Origin: an uncultured Spirochaetia bacterium
GTDB lineage: Bacteria > Spirochaetota > Brachyspiria > Brachyspirales > Brachyspiraceae
Assembly: GCA_947038115.1 (NCBI GenBank)
Contig: CAMQVF010000013.1
Coordinates: 1 to 33,310, forward strand
DNA length: 33,310 bases
Reading direction: 5' to 3'
Below are positions 10,191 through 32,227 of the stretch, in pieces. Each line of letters opens with the position of its first letter. Position 1 is the stretch's first letter. Made by a program: the position numbers and the translations under genes. The notes beneath the pieces are model-generated. The model searched no databases. It saw nothing but the letters and a program-made list of their open reading frames with translations, and was not told the origin of the DNA.

Positions 10191-10219
10191 TTGACAAAAA
10201 CGGGAATAAAGTGTAGATT
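10191..10219 (+). promoter_or_regulatory. sigma70-type promoter of the RsbW/NUDIX-kinase pair
   Basis: A perfect TTGACA (10191-10196) and TAGATT (10214-10219) have a 17-base spacer. It begins only four bases after the stop of the outer-membrane protein and lies 47 bases before the RsbW-like ATG. Confidence 0.65.
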
Positions 10220-10265: not shown

Positions 10266-10748
10266 ATGACTAAGACTTATATTATTGATAGCGACATAGA
10301 TGAGATTAATGCTTGTATCAAAACTACTTCTGAGATTGTCGGCGAATTTTTTTCAAATAATAATGAAGAGATAAAACTTTATTCTATGGTTTTATATGAA
10401 GTTCTCATTAATGCAGTTGAGCATGGGAATTTGGGCATAACGTATCTTGATAAAAAAAATTGGATTATTGAAGGTGTCTATAAAGATAAATTGTTGTCGC
10501 TTTTAGAAACTGATAGTGTGAAAAACAAAAAAGTATATATCAACATAACTATGGACGATAATTTTCTGACTACCATAGTCGAAGATGAGGGAAATGGTTT
10601 TGATCCAAAAAAGCAGATGAATGAGCAAATGAAGGATGGAGTTATAAGAGAGAATGGGCGGGGCATGGTGCTTATAAATTCCTATTTTGACAATATTATT
10701 TTTAATGAAAAAAGTAATAAAGTAACTTTAATAAAAAATAGATCATAA
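10266..10748 (+). CDS. RsbW-type serine kinase / anti-sigma factor-like ATPase
   Basis: A 160-residue cytoplasmic GHKL ATPase of the RsbW/SpoIIAB type. The N box is LYEVLINAVEHGN (Glu45, Asn49), the G1 box is VEDEGNGFD (Asp107) and the G2 box is ENGRGMVLI (about 129-137). Such proteins bind a sigma factor or a downstream regulator and phosphorylate a STAS-domain antagonist. All ATP-binding residues are present, so kinase activity is likely. It starts 47 bases after a strong promoter and is followed after 23 bases by the NUDIX-histidine kinase gene. No STAS protein or sigma factor is adjacent. A PP2C phosphatase, the usual opposing enzyme, is encoded about 5 kb away on the other strand. Confidence 0.88.
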   Translation: MTKTYIIDSDIDEINACIKTTSEIVGEFFSNNNEEIKLYSMVLYEVLINAVEHGNLGITYLDKKNWIIEGVYKDKLLSLLETDSVKNKKVYINITMDDNFLTTIVEDEGNGFDPKKQMNEQMKDGVIRENGRGMVLINSYFDNIIFNEKSNKVTLIKNRS

Positions 10749-10771: not shown

Positions 10772-12316
10772 ATGGATAAAAAAGAAAAATTAGTAGTAGA
10801 CGCAAGCTATTTACGCAAATCACCCGAAATTAAATTGAATACTGGATTCTCTTCATTAGAGAGATTTTCTGTTATAAATGAATACGATGACGGTTCTTCA
10901 TCAGACAGTTATAATTGCGACATTGTTGTGCGACGTGGGTTTGACGCCGTTGGCATAATTCCTTATCTTTATATTGACAATAAATTACATATATTACTTT
11001 TGAATAATTTTAGAGCAGCCGCATTTTTTAGAGAAAAGATTTTAGGCAATACCGATTCCTCGCTTGTCGATGAGAACACGAAGTCGATGATAGAGATTCC
11101 TGCGGGCATTTTAGAAAAAGATGAATTAAAACTTACAAAAAATGACTTAGGCATTAGACGTTGTGCTGCACGGGAACTCATGGAAGAGACGGGTTATGAG
11201 CTATCATCTCGAGAAATGAAAGTGCTTGGCTCTTTTTATTATAGCTCGCCAGGTCTTTTGACTGAAAAAATATATATCGCAACTTGTGACATCACGGGGC
11301 TTTTGGCTGAAAAAATTGTGACTGACGGCTCTGTTATGGAAGAGACGATTAAGCCTTTTATAATTCCATTTTCTGAAGCTTTGGCGCTTTGTAATAATGG
11401 GGTTATTCGAAATGCAGTTACGGAAATTGCCATTAAGCGTTTATATTTTTTGCTTTTAGTTGAAAAAGATAAGAGCCATTCGAAAATTCTTCAAAAGCGT
11501 CTTGATACTATGTCTAGAGAAATTCGTTCATTGAAACGTGAAGCTAATTATTATAACAAACTTATTCGTGAGTTTAGAGCGACGATAACGCATGAACTCA
11601 AGCATCCATTTACGCAGGTTATGGGCTATATTTCTTTGCTTAAAAATAAAAATACTTCAGAAGAGGACAGAGCAAAATGGATTGATGTTATCTCACGAAG
11701 TGTTTCGCAATTATATGAGCTCAATAAAAATCTGGTAAAAACTGCTTTGCAAGATGATGACCATATGCAAAATACTGAAGCTTTTAATACTTATGATAAC
11801 ATAAATGAAATTGTCGAGGGCTATAAATATCTTTATGATAGCAGTCTTGAAACTAATATTTCGATTGATGAATCTTCTGCGGTTTTGATAGGTAATCCTT
11901 ATCGCTTAAAACTTATCATGGAAGGAATTATATCGAATGCATTTAAATTCACAAAAAATGGGTCTATAAATATAACAGTTCGTTTGATAGACACACTTCT
12001 TGAGCCGAACTCGCTTGATTTTTCACCCGATTTGTTTAATTATCATGTGATGACAAATGTTTTGCCAAATGAAATAGAAATATCAGTGAAAGATTCGGGC
12101 ATTGGGATAAAACCTAAGCAGTTGAAAAAAATATTTATCCCATTTTATCAAAGTGATTCAAGGTTTTCTCGAGAGTTTTCAGGCGTGGGACTTGGGCTTT
12201 CGGTGGTTAAAGATTTAGTGCATACTATGCAAGGTTCTATTAAAATTGATAGCGAGATAAATGTGGGCACTCTGGTTTGTCTTAGAATTCCATTTGGCAT
12301 ACCTGAGAGTAATTAG
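10772..12316 (+). CDS. NUDIX hydrolase-histidine kinase fusion protein
   Basis: A 514-residue soluble protein with two distinct halves. Residues about 45-230 form a NUDIX domain of the ADP-sugar pyrophosphatase type: IEIPAGILEKDE (107-118), eight extra residues relative to the canonical box, then RELMEETGY (134-142) with the metal-binding Glu135, Glu138 and Glu139 intact. Residues 231-268 look like a coiled-coil linker. A HisKA dimerisation domain follows with FRATITHELKHPF, phospho-acceptor His274. The HATPase domain has an N box (Asn389), G1 DSGIGIKP (441-448), F box IFIPFYQ (454-460) and G2 GVGLGLSVV (471-479). Both halves look catalytically competent. There are no membrane segments and no receiver domain or adjacent response regulator. 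I infer a cytoplasmic sensor kinase gated by a nucleotide-diphosphate compound. Confidence 0.88.
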   Translation: MDKKEKLVVDASYLRKSPEIKLNTGFSSLERFSVINEYDDGSSSDSYNCDIVVRRGFDAVGIIPYLYIDNKLHILLLNNFRAAAFFREKILGNTDSSLVDENTKSMIEIPAGILEKDELKLTKNDLGIRRCAARELMEETGYELSSREMKVLGSFYYSSPGLLTEKIYIATCDITGLLAEKIVTDGSVMEETIKPFIIPFSEALALCNNGVIRNAVTEIAIKRLYFLLLVEKDKSHSKILQKRLDTMSREIRSLKREANYYNKLIREFRATITHELKHPFTQVMGYISLLKNKNTSEEDRAKWIDVISRSVSQLYELNKNLVKTALQDDDHMQNTEAFNTYDNINEIVEGYKYLYDSSLETNISIDESSAVLIGNPYRLKLIMEGIISNAFKFTKNGSINITVRLIDTLLEPNSLDFSPDLFNYHVMTNVLPNEIEISVKDSGIGIKPKQLKKIFIPFYQSDSRFSREFSGVGLGLSVVKDLVHTMQGSIKIDSEINVGTLVCLRIPFGIPESN

Positions 12317-15138: not shown

Positions 15139-15927
15139 ATGATAGATAGCCATTGCCATTTTACATATATGTCGAAACAACCTAAAGACATTGAAGACGC
15201 TTTGGTGCGAGCCAATCGAGAGGGTATTTTATATTTTATAGACATTGGTGTTCATCCTAGCGATTTAGAAATGAGAGTAAATCTTTTAACCGAAGCTCAA
15301 GGCGTTTTTTTAACTGCGGGTTTTTACCCCGACTACACGAATGAGCATACCGAAGATTCAATAAAGGCTTTTAAATTACAAATAGAAACTTTGAATGAAA
15401 GTAAAAAGCGTATATTTGCCGTGGGTGAGATTGGGCTTGATTATGCTCATGACAAAACAAATAAACCTGCACAAAGAAAGTTTTTTGCCGAATTAATCAA
15501 TGTCGCTAAAGAGACTGACCTTCCAATTGTCATACATTCTCGAGAAGCTTTCAATGACACATTTACCGTTTTAAGAGAAAATGAAAATCCTAAAAAAGGA
15601 ATATTTCATTGTTTTAGTGGCGGTATGGAAGAAGCTAAAAGAGCTCTCGACTTGGGATATATTTTATCTTTTTCAGGCGTTGTTACCTATGAAAAAAATG
15701 ATTTTATAAGAGAAGCTTGTAAATATGTGCCAAGTGATATGTTTACACTTGAAACCGATTCGCCTTATCTAACGCCTCAAAAATTACGTGGCAGAAGAAA
15801 TGAGCCTTCATTCATCCCATATATTGCCGAGGTTGTCGCTGAGTGTCGAAATGAGCCAGTTGAAAGTGTGCTTAAAAAATCGCTTGAGAATGCACAGAGA
15901 GTTTTAGGTTTTCCACTTTTTATTTAA
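15139..15927 (+). CDS. tatD: TatD-family metal-dependent hydrolase (DNase)
   Basis: A 262-residue TIM-barrel amidohydrolase of the TatD family, cytoplasmic, with 3'-5' exonuclease/deoxyribonuclease activity in characterised members. Metal-site motifs are complete: DSHCHF (His5, His7), VGEIGLDY with its Glu, LPIVIHSRE, GIFHCFSG and LETDSPYL with the Asp ligand. Length is normal. AAGGGAG precedes the ATG. It is the last gene of the nrdJ operon and its 3' end overlaps the convergent PP2C phosphatase gene by 8 bases, leaving no room for a separate terminator. Confidence 0.93.
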   Translation: MIDSHCHFTYMSKQPKDIEDALVRANREGILYFIDIGVHPSDLEMRVNLLTEAQGVFLTAGFYPDYTNEHTEDSIKAFKLQIETLNESKKRIFAVGEIGLDYAHDKTNKPAQRKFFAELINVAKETDLPIVIHSREAFNDTFTVLRENENPKKGIFHCFSGGMEEAKRALDLGYILSFSGVVTYEKNDFIREACKYVPSDMFTLETDSPYLTPQKLRGRRNEPSFIPYIAEVVAECRNEPVESVLKKSLENAQRVLGFPLFI

Positions 15928-17695
15928 GCATTTTAGCGACTATAATTGTTGTATCATCAAATTGTGCGGCCTCTTTTCGAAAAGTAATGGTGTCGTCTAC
16001 TATTGAATTACAAGTATCAATTGAGTTTTCAAAATGTTTGCTAGAAATAAATTCGACTAGACGTTCTTCGCCATATTCCTCACTTTCCTCATTGAATGTC
16101 TCAGTAATTCCATCGGTGAAAAGTAATATTTTATCATTTATATCATAATTTATTTTACTATTTGTATAGCTCTCATCTTCTAAAACGCCTAAAGGTCGTC
16201 CTTGAGTATGTAAAGTTTCTAAAGATATTTTATTATTATCATCGCTTTTTATTAAAAATTGATTCAAATGACCAGCATTGGAATATTTTATTTCCTTTTT
16301 TGAAGTGTCGACTATCGCAATAAAAACTGTAACAAACATTCCAGATTTTGAATCTTGATATAAATGCTTATTAGTTTTTTTGAGAATATTCGCAGGTGTT
16401 TTATTTTCCAAGGCATAGACTCGAATAATGCTTCTACACATAGCCATAAAAAGCCCAGCTCTTAAGCCCTTGCCAGAGACATCGGCGATAACCAATGCAT
16501 ATTTCGACTCTGTAATTTTTATGAAGTCATAGAAATCACCGCCAACATTCTCACTTGGAATACTTCTAGCGAAAATATCGAAGGCATCTGCAAATGAAAA
16601 ATCGGTTGGTAAAATACTTTGTTGCATAAACCCAGTCATTTCGACTTCTGCTGCCAATTTCTCTTTTAGCTTAGCCTCTTTTAGCAATTTAAAGTGAATA
16701 TAATTATCACCTATTTGTTGAGCGAGCATTTCTAATAATTGCAAATCGCTTAATTTAAATGTCTTATTTTCATTTCTTTCAGTCGCACACACAAAACCTA
16801 TAATCTCATTTTTATCATGAAGTGGGGCAGCGATGAAGCTTGAAGTTTTATATCTCAAATCTTTATTCGGTCGATATCTTTTATCTTTATTTACATTTTG
16901 GGCGCAAATCCCATGGTTCATTTTTATAATTTCTTCAAGGGGGTTTCCAATAACTGTGATAACGCCATTTTTTAATACGTCTTCATCAATTCCAACGCCT
17001 GCTATAAATTTGAAGACGTCATTTTCTTTAATGATAATAGATGTTCTATGTGCTTCAAAGGCTTCAGATATTACGCTTAAATTTTCTTTTAACACTTCTT
17101 CGACAGTTTCGAATTTATTTATAGCCATTGATATTTGATATAAAGCGCCAACTTCATAGGCCTTAAACTGCGACTCTTCATAGATCATTTTATTTATAAG
17201 TACAATCGATATAAAGTCGGCAAAGTTTTTCATTATATCAGCATCTTCTTCTTGAAACCGTCTGTCTGTTTTATTGATAAGAAATAATGACGCTATGTTT
17301 TTAGAATTTGAATGAATTGGCATGAATAATATATTTTTTAATTCTTTGCCCAAAGCGTCCTCAAAAGGTATAAACATAGAATCTTCATCAGGATTATTAG
17401 AGTAAAGTGGTGAAGATATTTTTGAAGCTCTCACCGACAATGGTGCAATGTTTTCAATAGTAACGTCATAAATGCATTCAGCAATACTGCCAATAGATAT
17501 ATGATGTTTAAGTTCTTTTGTGTCTGAATTGATTATAAAAAGCGCTATAGCTTCGACGCTCATTATATTTTTAATTTCAGTAACTATATTTACAAGTATA
17601 TCTTCAAAGTTATCACCTGAATTTATCTTTTTTAATACGCTTACAAAAGAGTTTAGTTGCGTTTCTGGGTTTGAGATTATATCATTGTTATCCAC
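15920..17695 (-). CDS. GAF-GAF-PP2C serine phosphatase (RsbU/SpoIIE type)
   Basis: A 591-residue cytoplasmic signalling phosphatase. Residues about 25-170 and 185-335 are two GAF-type sensor domains (the second begins YEVGALYQISMAINKF). A coiled-coil linker (about 336-358) leads to a SpoIIE-type PP2C domain at 360-590. Metal-binding aspartates are visible in GGDFYD (Asp387), IADVSGKG (Asp405), LLFTDGITE (Asp528) and FDDTT (580-581), so activity is expected. Such enzymes dephosphorylate STAS antagonists phosphorylated by RsbW-like kinases. The start is GTG at 17695 with AGGAG five bases upstream. No ligand can be read from the GAF domains. A partner relation with the RsbW-like kinase at 10266 is inference. 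Confidence 0.9.
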   Translation of the reverse strand: MDNNDIISNPETQLNSFVSVLKKINSGDNFEDILVNIVTEIKNIMSVEAIALFIINSDTKELKHHISIGSIAECIYDVTIENIAPLSVRASKISSPLYSNNPDEDSMFIPFEDALGKELKNILFMPIHSNSKNIASLFLINKTDRRFQEEDADIMKNFADFISIVLINKMIYEESQFKAYEVGALYQISMAINKFETVEEVLKENLSVISEAFEAHRTSIIIKENDVFKFIAGVGIDEDVLKNGVITVIGNPLEEIIKMNHGICAQNVNKDKRYRPNKDLRYKTSSFIAAPLHDKNEIIGFVCATERNENKTFKLSDLQLLEMLAQQIGDNYIHFKLLKEAKLKEKLAAEVEMTGFMQQSILPTDFSFADAFDIFARSIPSENVGGDFYDFIKITESKYALVIADVSGKGLRAGLFMAMCRSIIRVYALENKTPANILKKTNKHLYQDSKSGMFVTVFIAIVDTSKKEIKYSNAGHLNQFLIKSDDNNKISLETLHTQGRPLGVLEDESYTNSKINYDINDKILLFTDGITETFNEESEEYGEERLVEFISSKHFENSIDTCNSIVDDTITFRKEAAQFDDTTIIVAKMLK

Positions 17696-23524: not shown

Positions 23525-24334
23525 CTATCCGAAAACAACAATCGCGTCGCTATTTTTTACACGAGGCAATACAGTTTCGATTAATCTAAATGAATGGTTC
23601 AAATCTTTTTGTTCAAGATAAGCGGCAACCATATCGATACCAATAGCTAAATCCATATATTGGAATTCAGGACATATTAACATACCCTTGCCAGCAGGAA
23701 TTAAAGAAGATCTGTAAACACCATTAAGCATTTTAGATATTCTACTATATTCTGTCATGCCAGTTCCTGCTTGTATTCTTTGCAAGTCAAGATAAAGATT
23801 ATTGCTTAAAACCAAAACAGAATCACCAATAACATCTTTTTCTCTAATCATATTTATAGCTTTAACTATGTCAGCAAAAGAATTTTCATCTTTCGACCAG
23901 TCAGCTATTTTAAGGTTTTGAACACCGGGAGTATTCATTAAACCTTTACATTTAACAGTTTCGCTACCAAAGAAAATTAAAGAATCTTCTTTTTTAGCTA
24001 AATTTTGAGCAGCACCTGCGACAGAAGAAAAGTCAAGTGGCATTCCACTTCTAATATTATTTTCAATATCTCTCCATAAAATGTCGAAGTCTTGATAAAT
24101 TTGAGGAAGTTCATAAAATACTCTACCAGTAGTTTTTACAATTCCATTCTCAAAAGTCTCTTCTTTATCGAATTTATCACATTGAACACTTGTAGCACCT
24201 GCACCAAGTGGACCGTAAATCGATAAAAATTTTCTTCCTGTAAGTGTTCTTGCGGCAGTATCTACCACAACTTTATCTATTTTTGACCAAAAATCACCCT
24301 CGAAAGGTGAGCCATCACGAGCTAAATAATCCAT
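23525..24334 (-). CDS. family 1 encapsulin shell protein
   Basis: A 269-residue HK97-fold protein that assembles into an icosahedral protein nanocompartment in the cytoplasm. Recognised by length (family 1 shells are about 265-280) and by the N terminus with ARDGSPF and WSKIDKVVVDTAARTLTGRKF, then FLSIYGPLGAGATSV, and later MNTPGVQ and the C-terminal LNHSFRLIETVLPRV. It lies 17 bases downstream of the encapsulated-ferritin gene, so shell and cargo are co-transcribed, cargo first. AGGAG precedes the ATG. No other phage-like gene is nearby, which argues against a prophage capsid. The filled shell would store or sequester iron oxidised by the cargo. Confidence 0.93.
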   Translation of the reverse strand: MDYLARDGSPFEGDFWSKIDKVVVDTAARTLTGRKFLSIYGPLGAGATSVQCDKFDKEETFENGIVKTTGRVFYELPQIYQDFDILWRDIENNIRSGMPLDFSSVAGAAQNLAKKEDSLIFFGSETVKCKGLMNTPGVQNLKIADWSKDENSFADIVKAINMIREKDVIGDSVLVLSNNLYLDLQRIQAGTGMTEYSRISKMLNGVYRSSLIPAGKGMLICPEFQYMDLAIGIDMVAAYLEQKDLNHSFRLIETVLPRVKNSDAIVVFG

Positions 24335-24351
24335 AATTAAACTCCTTTAAT

Positions 24352-24714
24352 TTACTTTTTGAGGCTTCCAACTGTAAGAGAAGGCATATGTTCTTCATAT
24401 AAATTTGGTTCTTTAATACCTAATTCTTCCATCATCTCTTTAACTTCACTCTCACCACTTGCGAACATTTCTGCTTCTTTAGGATCAAGATGTCTTAAAA
24501 GTGCCATAAGTTCACCCATATGAGCTTTCTCTTCATCACGAATATCAGATAAAACAGCCTTTGCCAATAGATCATCTGTAGCCATAATATGAGCGTCATA
24601 CAAATAAATAGCTTCAAGCTCGCCTGCGATATCTAATCTGATTGCTTGCACAAGCTCTTCTTTTGATATCTTTCTGTCTACATTTGCATTAAAAGGGTTA
24701 GCAAAACTAGGCAT
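24352..24714 (-). CDS. encapsulated ferritin (EncFtn) cargo protein
   Basis: A 120-residue ferritin-like ferroxidase of the encapsulated type: two long helices rather than the four of classical ferritin, so it must oligomerise to make its iron site. The ferroxidase residues lie at the same positions as in Rhodospirillum rubrum EncFtn: Glu32 in GELEAIYLYD, Tyr39, and Glu62 and His65 in RDEEKAHM. The extreme C terminus, LTVGSLKK (113-120), is a classic encapsulin cargo-loading peptide, joined by a flexible stretch (about 98-112). It would oxidise Fe(II) inside the shell encoded directly downstream. AGGAG lies six bases before the ATG. Confidence 0.95.
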   Translation of the reverse strand: MPSFANPFNANVDRKISKEELVQAIRLDIAGELEAIYLYDAHIMATDDLLAKAVLSDIRDEEKAHMGELMALLRHLDPKEAEMFASGESEVKEMMEELGIKEPNLYEEHMPSLTVGSLKK

Positions 24715-30535: not shown

Positions 30536-32227
30536 CTAATTAAATTCAAGTTTATAAAGTGTTTCTCTGTCGACAATTTCGTAATGATAGCCTTGTTCCG
30601 TGAGAAATAATTGTCTTTTATGGCCGAAGTCTTCTTCTTTGGTGTCGCTTGTGATAATTGAAAAGAAAAAACTTCTATTAGAGCCCGATTTAGGACGGAG
30701 AATTCTCCCAAGCCTTTGTGCTTCCTCTTGTCTCGAGCCGAATGTGCCTGATATTTGTATTAAAACTTCAGCATCGGGTAGGTCAATGGCGAAATTAGCA
30801 ACTTTACTTACAATAAGTGTTTTTATTTCACCCGCCTTAAATTTGCCGTAGATAATATCTCTTTCAGCTTGAGGCGTTTTTCCAGTTATAATTGTGAAGC
30901 CAGTTTTTTTATTCATCTCGTCGAGTTGCGATAAATATTGTCCTATAATAAGAACATTTTTATCTTTAACTTGCTCGAGTAATTTTATTACAACTTCATA
31001 TTTTAATACATTTTCACTAGCAATTCGAAATTTAGTTCTATCGGTAGATATTACATAATCATTTCTATGACTAGGATCTAATGGAATACGCACATCATAA
31101 CAATAGGCTGTCGCTATAAAATTCTTTTTTTCCAAATCACGCCAAGGCATATCGAATTTTTTAGGGCCTATCAAACAAAAAACATCTTTTTCAAGCCCAT
31201 CTTCACGCACCAAAGTCGCCGTAAGCCCCAAACGTCTCATGCTTTGAATCTCGCTTGTGAGTTTAATTATCGGTGCTGGCAAAAGGTGAACTTCATCATA
31301 TATAACGAGTCCCCAGCTTTTCTCGAAAAATAAATGGAAGTGCAAAAATGGCGATTGTTTATCTTTTCGATATGTTAGAATTTTATATGTCGCTATAGTT
31401 ATAGGTTTAATTTCTTTTGTCGCACCATTATATTCGCCGATATCTTCTTCTTTTATATCAGTTTTATCGAGTATTTCTTGTTTCCACTGACGACAAGCAG
31501 TAACACCCGTGGTTATTATTAATGTATGAGTTTGCATTCGCTCCATCGCAGTAATTCCTACAATGGTTTTGCCCGATCCACATGGCAATGTTACTACGCC
31601 TGCTCCGCCTTCAGAGCGACCTTCAGCATAATAAACATCAATGGCATCTTTTTGATATTCCCGAACATTAAAAGGTTTGCCATTCGACTTCATCACTTCT
31701 CGGAAGTTAAAATGAAATGGTATTCCTTCTTTATAGCCAGCCAAATCTTCGACTGGGTAGCCTAAATTAATTAAAGCTAATTTAATATGCCCTCTGTAAG
31801 CGCCATCAATTTCGATTTTATTATTGCTTAAAACATCTTTTATATATTTTTCAGTATGTTTGTAATGAGCGACTTCAGTGATTATTGAACTGTCTTCGCT
31901 TGTAAGAAAGAATTTATCATTTTCTTTTATAATTTTCACACGACCATATTTTTGAATGCTATCAGTTATTTGATAAATAATATTTTTAGGCACTTCGTAT
32001 GAAGAGTATTTTATTAAAAAGTCTATAATTGTTTGAGCTTCATATTTAAGGCTCGCCGCATTCCAAAGTGAAACCGAAGTTATTTTATAGGTGTGTATAT
32101 ATTCAGGGCTTTTAATGAGCTCGGCGAATGCAAGCATGAAAGTTCGAATTTCATCAAAGTCATTAGCCTTCACATCTAAAAGTATGGTTCCATCACCTTG
32201 CACAATCAACGGTGTGTTTACATTCAA
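30536..32227 (-). CDS. XPB/Rad25-type superfamily 2 DNA helicase
   Basis: A 563-residue DNA helicase of the XPB type, mainly known from eukaryotes and archaea but present in some bacterial lineages. The N-terminal region (1-180) holds the XPB-specific damage-recognition-like domain (LLDVKANDF, helical segments). Then motif I LPCGSGKT (214-221), motif II DEVH (311-314), motif III LTAT (335-338), the XPB-type RED triad (Arg341-Glu-Asp343), and motif VI QRLGRILRPKSG near residue 515. All ATPase residues are present, so it should be active in DNA repair or transcription-linked remodelling. GGGAG lies about 8 bases before the ATG. Downstream thiE and the HAD gene look like passengers of its transcript. 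Confidence 0.93.
   Translation of the reverse strand: MNVNTPLIVQGDGTILLDVKANDFDEIRTFMLAFAELIKSPEYIHTYKITSVSLWNAASLKYEAQTIIDFLIKYSSYEVPKNIIYQITDSIQKYGRVKIIKENDKFFLTSEDSSIITEVAHYKHTEKYIKDVLSNNKIEIDGAYRGHIKLALINLGYPVEDLAGYKEGIPFHFNFREVMKSNGKPFNVREYQKDAIDVYYAEGRSEGGAGVVTLPCGSGKTIVGITAMERMQTHTLIITTGVTACRQWKQEILDKTDIKEEDIGEYNGATKEIKPITIATYKILTYRKDKQSPFLHFHLFFEKSWGLVIYDEVHLLPAPIIKLTSEIQSMRRLGLTATLVREDGLEKDVFCLIGPKKFDMPWRDLEKKNFIATAYCYDVRIPLDPSHRNDYVISTDRTKFRIASENVLKYEVVIKLLEQVKDKNVLIIGQYLSQLDEMNKKTGFTIITGKTPQAERDIIYGKFKAGEIKTLIVSKVANFAIDLPDAEVLIQISGTFGSRQEEAQRLGRILRPKSGSNRSFFFSIITSDTKEEDFGHKRQLFLTEQGYHYEIVDRETLYKLEFN

Follow-up and report, generated by a model that had tools for sequence, protein, structure and literature searches.

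A Nudix-histidine kinase fusion conserved across the Brachyspirales, a possible soluble sensor of nucleoside diphosphate compounds

Organization of the locus

The window analyzed here is a stretch of 33,310 nucleotides from a genome of the Brachyspira family that spans 1.77 Mb and is 99% complete. A single uninterrupted open reading frame within it encodes a cytosolic protein of 514 aa in which a Nudix domain precedes a histidine kinase, and a second, shorter gene lies just upstream. The features of this two-gene unit are as follows (coordinates are those of the window):

10191..10219 (+), candidate sigma-70-type promoter before the two-gene unit, TTGACA-17-TAGATT (10/12 consensus matches)
10266..10748 (+), RsbW/SpoIIAB-like HATPase_c_2 protein, 160 aa (PF13581, E 1e-11)
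10772..12316 (+), Nudix-histidine kinase, 514 aa (ORF, Pfam, orthologs)
10835..11437 (+), AdpP/NudK-type Nudix domain, residues 22-222 (PDB profile, TIGR00052, fold match)
11105..11200 (+), Nudix box G112-X5-E118-X15-R134-E135-L-M-E138-E139-T-G141-Y142-E143 with an 8-residue insertion (alignment of 29 orthologs)
11336..11344 (+), M189-E190-E191, equivalent of catalytic loop L9 (invariant in 29 orthologs; aligns with the NudK/AdpP loop glutamates)
11438..11566 (+), helical linker, residues ~223-265 (AlphaFold model)
11567..11731 (+), HisKA (DHp) domain with H-box H274-E-L-K-H278-P279 (PF00512; all 29 orthologs share HELxHP)
11894..12295 (+), HATPase_c domain with N389, D441xG443xG445, G471xG473xG475, and the lineage insert P419-D-L-F-N-Y-H425 (PF02518; motif invariance)

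The kinase half is recognized by Pfam as HisKA (residues 266-320; PF00512, E 9e-8) followed by HATPase_c (residues 375-508; PF02518, E 1e-20). The Pfam NUDIX match at residues 108-158 falls just under the cut-off when the whole protein is scanned (E 4.5e-4) and rises above it when the isolated domain is scanned alone (22.4 bits). KD19 hydropathy revealed no membrane-type hydrophobic stretch in the 514-aa protein (maximum, 1.28). A preliminary description made from the letters alone had proposed a single soluble protein joining a Nudix domain to a complete histidine kinase, and sequence, profile, and fold all agree with it; the start of the Nudix domain, which it had placed at residue 45, has to be moved, as the TIGR00052-like region begins near residue 22. 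Profile searches with the Nudix half recovered NUDIX, AdpP, and NudK matches and no other fold.

Distribution and origin of the fusion

Histidine kinases usually sense their signals through PAS, GAF, HAMP, or periplasmic domains. All 31 Brachyspirales genomes searched, from 5 genera and 2 families, carry the Nudix-kinase as a full-length, single-copy ortholog (40 to 70% identity); no split version was found among them, and the 362 other Spirochaetota genomes searched have no ortholog. The nearest match outside the order, in genome G066, is a membrane kinase in which the Nudix domain is absent, and it was rejected as an ortholog. A Nudix profile search of 346 Bacteroidota, 395 Desulfobacterota, and 14 other genomes found no clear fusion; the reach of this search is that of the profile used, such that fusions with more distant Nudix subfamilies could escape it. 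The matches in these genomes were almost exclusively frames of stand-alone size, the exceptions being three Desulfobacterota frames with weak Nudix matches (410 and 440 aa in G928 and G981 and 396 aa in G1037). These results support the earlier view of the architecture as unusual; within the order, many genomes carry it. HisKA kinases and AdpP-type Nudix domains are each known; a search of open-access full text found no published account of their fusion, nor of such a fusion as an order-wide core gene.

An assembly or gene-calling artefact, or a chance likeness to a Nudix domain, would be suggested at most by the borderline Pfam match on the whole protein. We regard this explanation as already refuted and its probability as negligible, given the occurrence of the fusion in 31 genomes, single-contig assemblies included, the TIGR00052 match (E 3e-12), and the fold match.

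Five Desulfobacterota genomes (loci L161 to L165) encode a stand-alone, full-length relative of the Nudix half (E 1e-23 to 1e-34). These proteins have the extended Nudix box and the DG..M/L-E-E/D/Q and TE-I/L-GL-RL motifs of the fused domain, so the fused protein falls into a separate branch of the AdpP/NudK group, one that has been little described. A flagellar-rod-type gene adjoins the stand-alone gene in three of the five loci (L162, L163, and L165), and a PyrR-like gene is found near it in two of the five.

The Nudix domain

Nudix domains normally bind and cut ADP-ribose-type molecules. The fused domain aligns with NCBIfam TIGR00052 (YffH/AdpP) over approximately residues 22-222, and with 46.5 bits against a curated cut-off of 79.55 it is a divergent relative rather than an annotated member of that family. 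A profile built from eight orthologous N-terminal domains had NudK as its best match in the PDB (E 1e-11), followed by Escherichia coli AdpP (E 1e-10, profile positions 7-215 aligned), and the predicted fold matched both NudK and a Klebsiella ADP-ribose diphosphatase (E ~1e-12). Residues 22-222 include the N-terminal domain that in AdpP and NudK forms a swapped dimer and contacts the base.

We assessed residue invariance over 29 distinct ortholog sequences, interpreting the positions by the roles established for the metal, beta-phosphate, and base contacts of AdpP and NudK (PMC4629899). The Nudix clan signature GX5EX7REUXEEXGU is recognizable, with an intact RELMEETGYE core and an 8-residue loop between GX5E and RE, and within the box A111, G112, R134, E135, E138, E139, and G141 are invariant. 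The same holds for E190/E191 in loop L9, for the beta-phosphate-binding Arg81, for the aromatic F26 of loop L1, and for the acidic D50 of strand beta3, so that the metal glutamates, beta-phosphate arginine, and L9 glutamate of AdpP all have their counterparts. Glu135, Glu138, and Glu139 had been named as the core from the outset, correctly, and the 8 extra residues noted at the same time are real (GX5E-X15-RE instead of X7). That these residues might alter catalysis is not borne out: the insertion is inherited, its length varies from 5 to 9 residues across orthologs and relatives, stand-alone relatives with a comparable insertion keep the metal glutamates, and the stretch lies off the RE..EE helix. 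The insertion was accordingly rejected as a sign of lost catalysis.

Base recognition is another matter. The tandem Arg-Glu with which strand beta3 of AdpP contacts the base is replaced by an invariant Cys49-Asp50, and the substitution of Cys49 for the base-stacking arginine of AdpP and NudK means that base specificity may differ. Judged from these residues, the domain has probably retained catalysis with altered base recognition. At the proline of the ADPRase SPG motif (P160), 24 of the 29 orthologs have serine, and the position of the NudK loop residue D152 is variable (T/N/S). Cys49 and Cys131, the latter inside the Nudix-box insertion, are both invariant.

The sugar site bears on whether the ligand could instead be an NDP-sugar of the GDP-mannose or UDP-/ADP-glucose type, in which case the kinase would read the supply of envelope or storage sugars. 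A D-x-K motif at helix alpha3 is the mark of NDP-sugar hydrolases and predicts a preference for GDP-mannose (PMC4629899). It is kept in all five stand-alone Desulfobacterota relatives, and the best PDB profile match, NudK, is a GDP-mannose hydrolase; both points favor an NDP-sugar. In the fused domain, however, the position reads N214-A215-V216, in agreement with the N-A of E. coli AdpP, and orthologs have N-A-V/G/A (N-G-A in the second family). With N-A rather than D-x-K at this position, the sugar site appears ADP-ribose-hydrolase-like, and we consider an NDP-sugar ligand, a reading that overlaps with our main one, fairly improbable.

The kinase half and its predicted coupling to the Nudix domain

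The kinase half contains the phosphoacceptor histidine followed by an acidic residue and the N, G1, and G2 boxes, and H274, E275, P279, N389, D441xG443xG445, and G471xG473xG475 are invariant in the 29 orthologs; the earlier assignment of His274 as the phosphoacceptor position therefore holds. The invariance of the Nudix catalytic residues, Arg81, and the kinase motifs suggests that both halves are probably active. Nearly all HisKA kinases have T or N four positions after the histidine, a residue that marks phosphatase function rather than kinase membership. The equivalent position is threonine in the 12 other kinases that we aligned and H278 in 29/29 orthologs. The T/N residue is needed for phosphatase activity toward the response regulator (PMC3510030), and its replacement by His278 makes that activity doubtful, implying a kinase in which it is weak or missing. 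The PDLFNYH insert at residues 419-425 of the CA domain is also invariant in orthologs and absent from the 12 other kinases; a membrane kinase from a different spirochaete (L155:5211-7043) has a stretch that resembles it loosely.

The AlphaFold model of the full-length protein matches HK853 and other kinases in fold and predicts a single unbroken helix (residues 215-290) running from the C-terminal helix of the Nudix domain into DHp helix 1. Confidence in the model is moderate (mean pLDDT 69.9, pTM 0.39; block means of 59-75 pLDDT in the linker stretch), which makes this helical coupling a prediction only.

Control between the halves could also run the other way, with the Nudix half a working NDP-X hydrolase regulated by the kinase, or the two could have been fused for coexpression with no communication between them. 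Such arrangements would be compatible with the retention of the full catalytic signature and with the fact that no other AdpP-type Nudix protein was found in any of the Brachyspirales genomes (E<=0.001), so that it may serve the cell as its ADP-ribose hydrolase; G000 has one further Nudix gene, and this is MutT-like. We nonetheless judge them unlikely, because the Nudix domain is N-terminal to HisKA and joined to it by a predicted continuous helix, a position typical of input domains, and because no split version was found among the 31 genomes.

Genomic neighborhood and candidate partners

A gap of 23 nt separates the RsbW-like gene from the kinase gene that follows it, and the two are probably cotranscribed. 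The region before the two-gene unit had no significant excess of sigma-70-type sites over shuffled sequences. In 28 of 29 Brachyspiraceae genomes the kinase gene is immediately preceded, on its own strand, by an ortholog of this RsbW-like gene (13 to 197 nt from the matched kinase stretch), which is the only neighbor conserved across this family, the others changing from genome to genome; the preliminary description mentioned neither it nor His278 of the kinase. The gene is not beside the kinase in G003 or in the second family (G025 and G026), which indicates that the link to RsbW is not obligatory. The upstream protein contains the HATPase_c_2 domain of RsbW and SpoIIAB and scores 21 bits against equivalog cut-offs of 145 and 135. 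In ~11 genomes, another HATPase_c_2 match, weaker than the first, is found just downstream on the opposite strand (confirmed by Pfam in L104). In three Brachyspiraceae loci (L099, L101, and L107), the convergent downstream genes code for an ECF sigma factor together with an anti-sigma factor of zinc-finger type. In the window itself, a GAF-GAF-SpoIIE (PP2C) protein (15920-17695, -) lies 3.6 kb from the kinase; it is a possible partner-switching phosphatase, and its position is not conserved in relatives.

The conserved neighbor also bears on whether the Nudix fold senses something other than a nucleotide, either the redox state, by way of Cys49 and Cys131, or a partner protein, for example the RsbW-like ATPase. 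Besides the adjacency in Brachyspiraceae, the invariance of the two cysteines and the anaerobic lifestyle of the Brachyspirales are in keeping with this idea. Metal and phosphate residues that had fallen out of use would be expected to drift, however, and all of them are invariant; we find sensing of this kind doubtful.

The absence of an adjacent response regulator, remarked on in the preliminary description, was confirmed: no receiver gene adjoins the Nudix-kinase gene in the loci inspected, and a cognate receiver could therefore not be assigned by adjacency among the 13 receivers of the window's genome, which also encodes five orthodox kinases (two clearly paired) and two CheA proteins. An orphan REC-PP2C response regulator, encoded in G000 at C60:7392-8549, occurs once per genome in all 31 Brachyspirales and could, purely as a hypothesis, link a kinase to partner switching; its universal presence does not discriminate. 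PADLOC returned no defense-system match for either the Nudix-kinase or the RsbW-like gene, and a role as a defense system was rejected.

Other features of the window and genomes

Three further observations fall outside the kinase locus. In G000, a receiver (PF00072) is fused to an LpxC deacetylase (PF03331, E 3e-63) on contig C18 (L134:4158-5450, -), which appears to be a response regulator whose output is the committed step of lipid A synthesis; no description of this fusion was found in the literature searched. The window also contains an encapsulin shell gene (Linocin_M18; 23525-24714, -) adjoined by an EncB-type ferritin-like cargo gene, and an XPB/RAD25-type helicase (30536-32227, -), here in a bacterium.

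Discussion

In this study, we characterized a Nudix-histidine kinase with intact motifs in both halves that is conserved throughout the sampled Brachyspirales, an order that includes agents of swine dysentery and intestinal spirochaetosis, and that in Brachyspiraceae belongs to a conserved two-gene unit. Its universality, together with the approximately five orthodox kinases in the window's genome, suggests that it is likely a core cytosolic sensor. We infer the ligand class, hydrolysis, the direction of control, the dimer coupling, and the partner. We give somewhat better than even chances to a soluble dimeric HisKA kinase whose AdpP-type Nudix input is controlled by an ADP-ribose-like ligand and possibly reset by its hydrolysis. 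An ADP-ribose-like nucleoside diphosphate compound would bind across the Nudix dimer, and the resulting change would pass along the helix from the Nudix C terminus to DHp helix 1 and set autophosphorylation on His274. Because the Nudix active site is intact, the ligand would probably also be hydrolyzed, if slowly, ending the signal and making the protein a self-resetting sensor. The original suggestion of an NDP-X compound that is detected, and possibly also degraded, finds support in the intact metal, L9, and Arg residues and in a sugar site that resembles that of ADPRases.

The phosphoryl group would then go to a receiver encoded elsewhere. The upstream RsbW-like ATPase would most likely act in the same pathway, possibly as the anti-sigma factor/serine kinase of a partner-switching branch reached via the REC-PP2C response regulator. 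The fuller scheme, in which an ADP-ribose-type sensor with an active Nudix domain switches itself off by destroying its ligand and feeds a partner-switching stress pathway of Brachyspira, we put forward only tentatively.

If an enzyme-type Nudix domain does serve as the kinase input, it would represent a new class of sensor, one that parallels in prokaryotes the TRPM2 channel-enzyme. The Nudix-kinase suggests that a nucleotide-sugar signal is wired directly into a two-component system of Brachyspira and its closest relatives, and it supplies specific residues of a specific protein with which to ask whether a phosphorelay lets bacteria sense ADP-ribose or NAD turnover.

Comparison with known systems

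The Nudix half shares with AdpP/NudF and NudK (YffH; TIGR00052) the fold, the N-terminal dimer domain, the metal glutamates, the beta-phosphate arginine, and the loop-L9 glutamate, and with AdpP in particular the N-A at helix alpha3; it differs in its 5 to 9 extra box residues, the cysteine in place of the base-stacking arginine, and the fusion to a kinase. The stand-alone Desulfobacterota proteins (L161 to L165) are homologous to it over their full length and have the extended box and shared motifs, but they are unfused and retain D-x-K. Like orthodox HisKA kinases such as HK853 and WalK, the Nudix-kinase has DHp and CA domains with all kinase motifs; unlike them, it has no periplasmic, PAS, or GAF input, reads HELxHP for HE-x-x-T/N, and contains the PDLFNYH insert in its CA domain. 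The upstream protein resembles the partner-switching kinases RsbW and SpoIIAB in its HATPase_c_2 domain and is itself a putative anti-sigma factor or serine kinase.

Precedents for a Nudix fold in regulation come from two directions. NrtR, cited in the preliminary description as evidence that Nudix folds can serve as regulators, is a sound example (PMC6800001): in NrtR and the Nudix-related transcriptional regulators the fold is likewise a regulatory ligand-binding module, but the output is DNA binding and the direct regulation of NAD synthesis genes. The TRPM2 chanzyme, the nearest functional analog and one for which self-resetting has been proposed (PMC11479946), uses a catalytically competent Nudix domain (NUDT9-H) as the ligand sensor of a signaling output, as we propose for the Nudix-kinase, although TRPM2 is a eukaryotic ion channel and its domain belongs to another Nudix subfamily.
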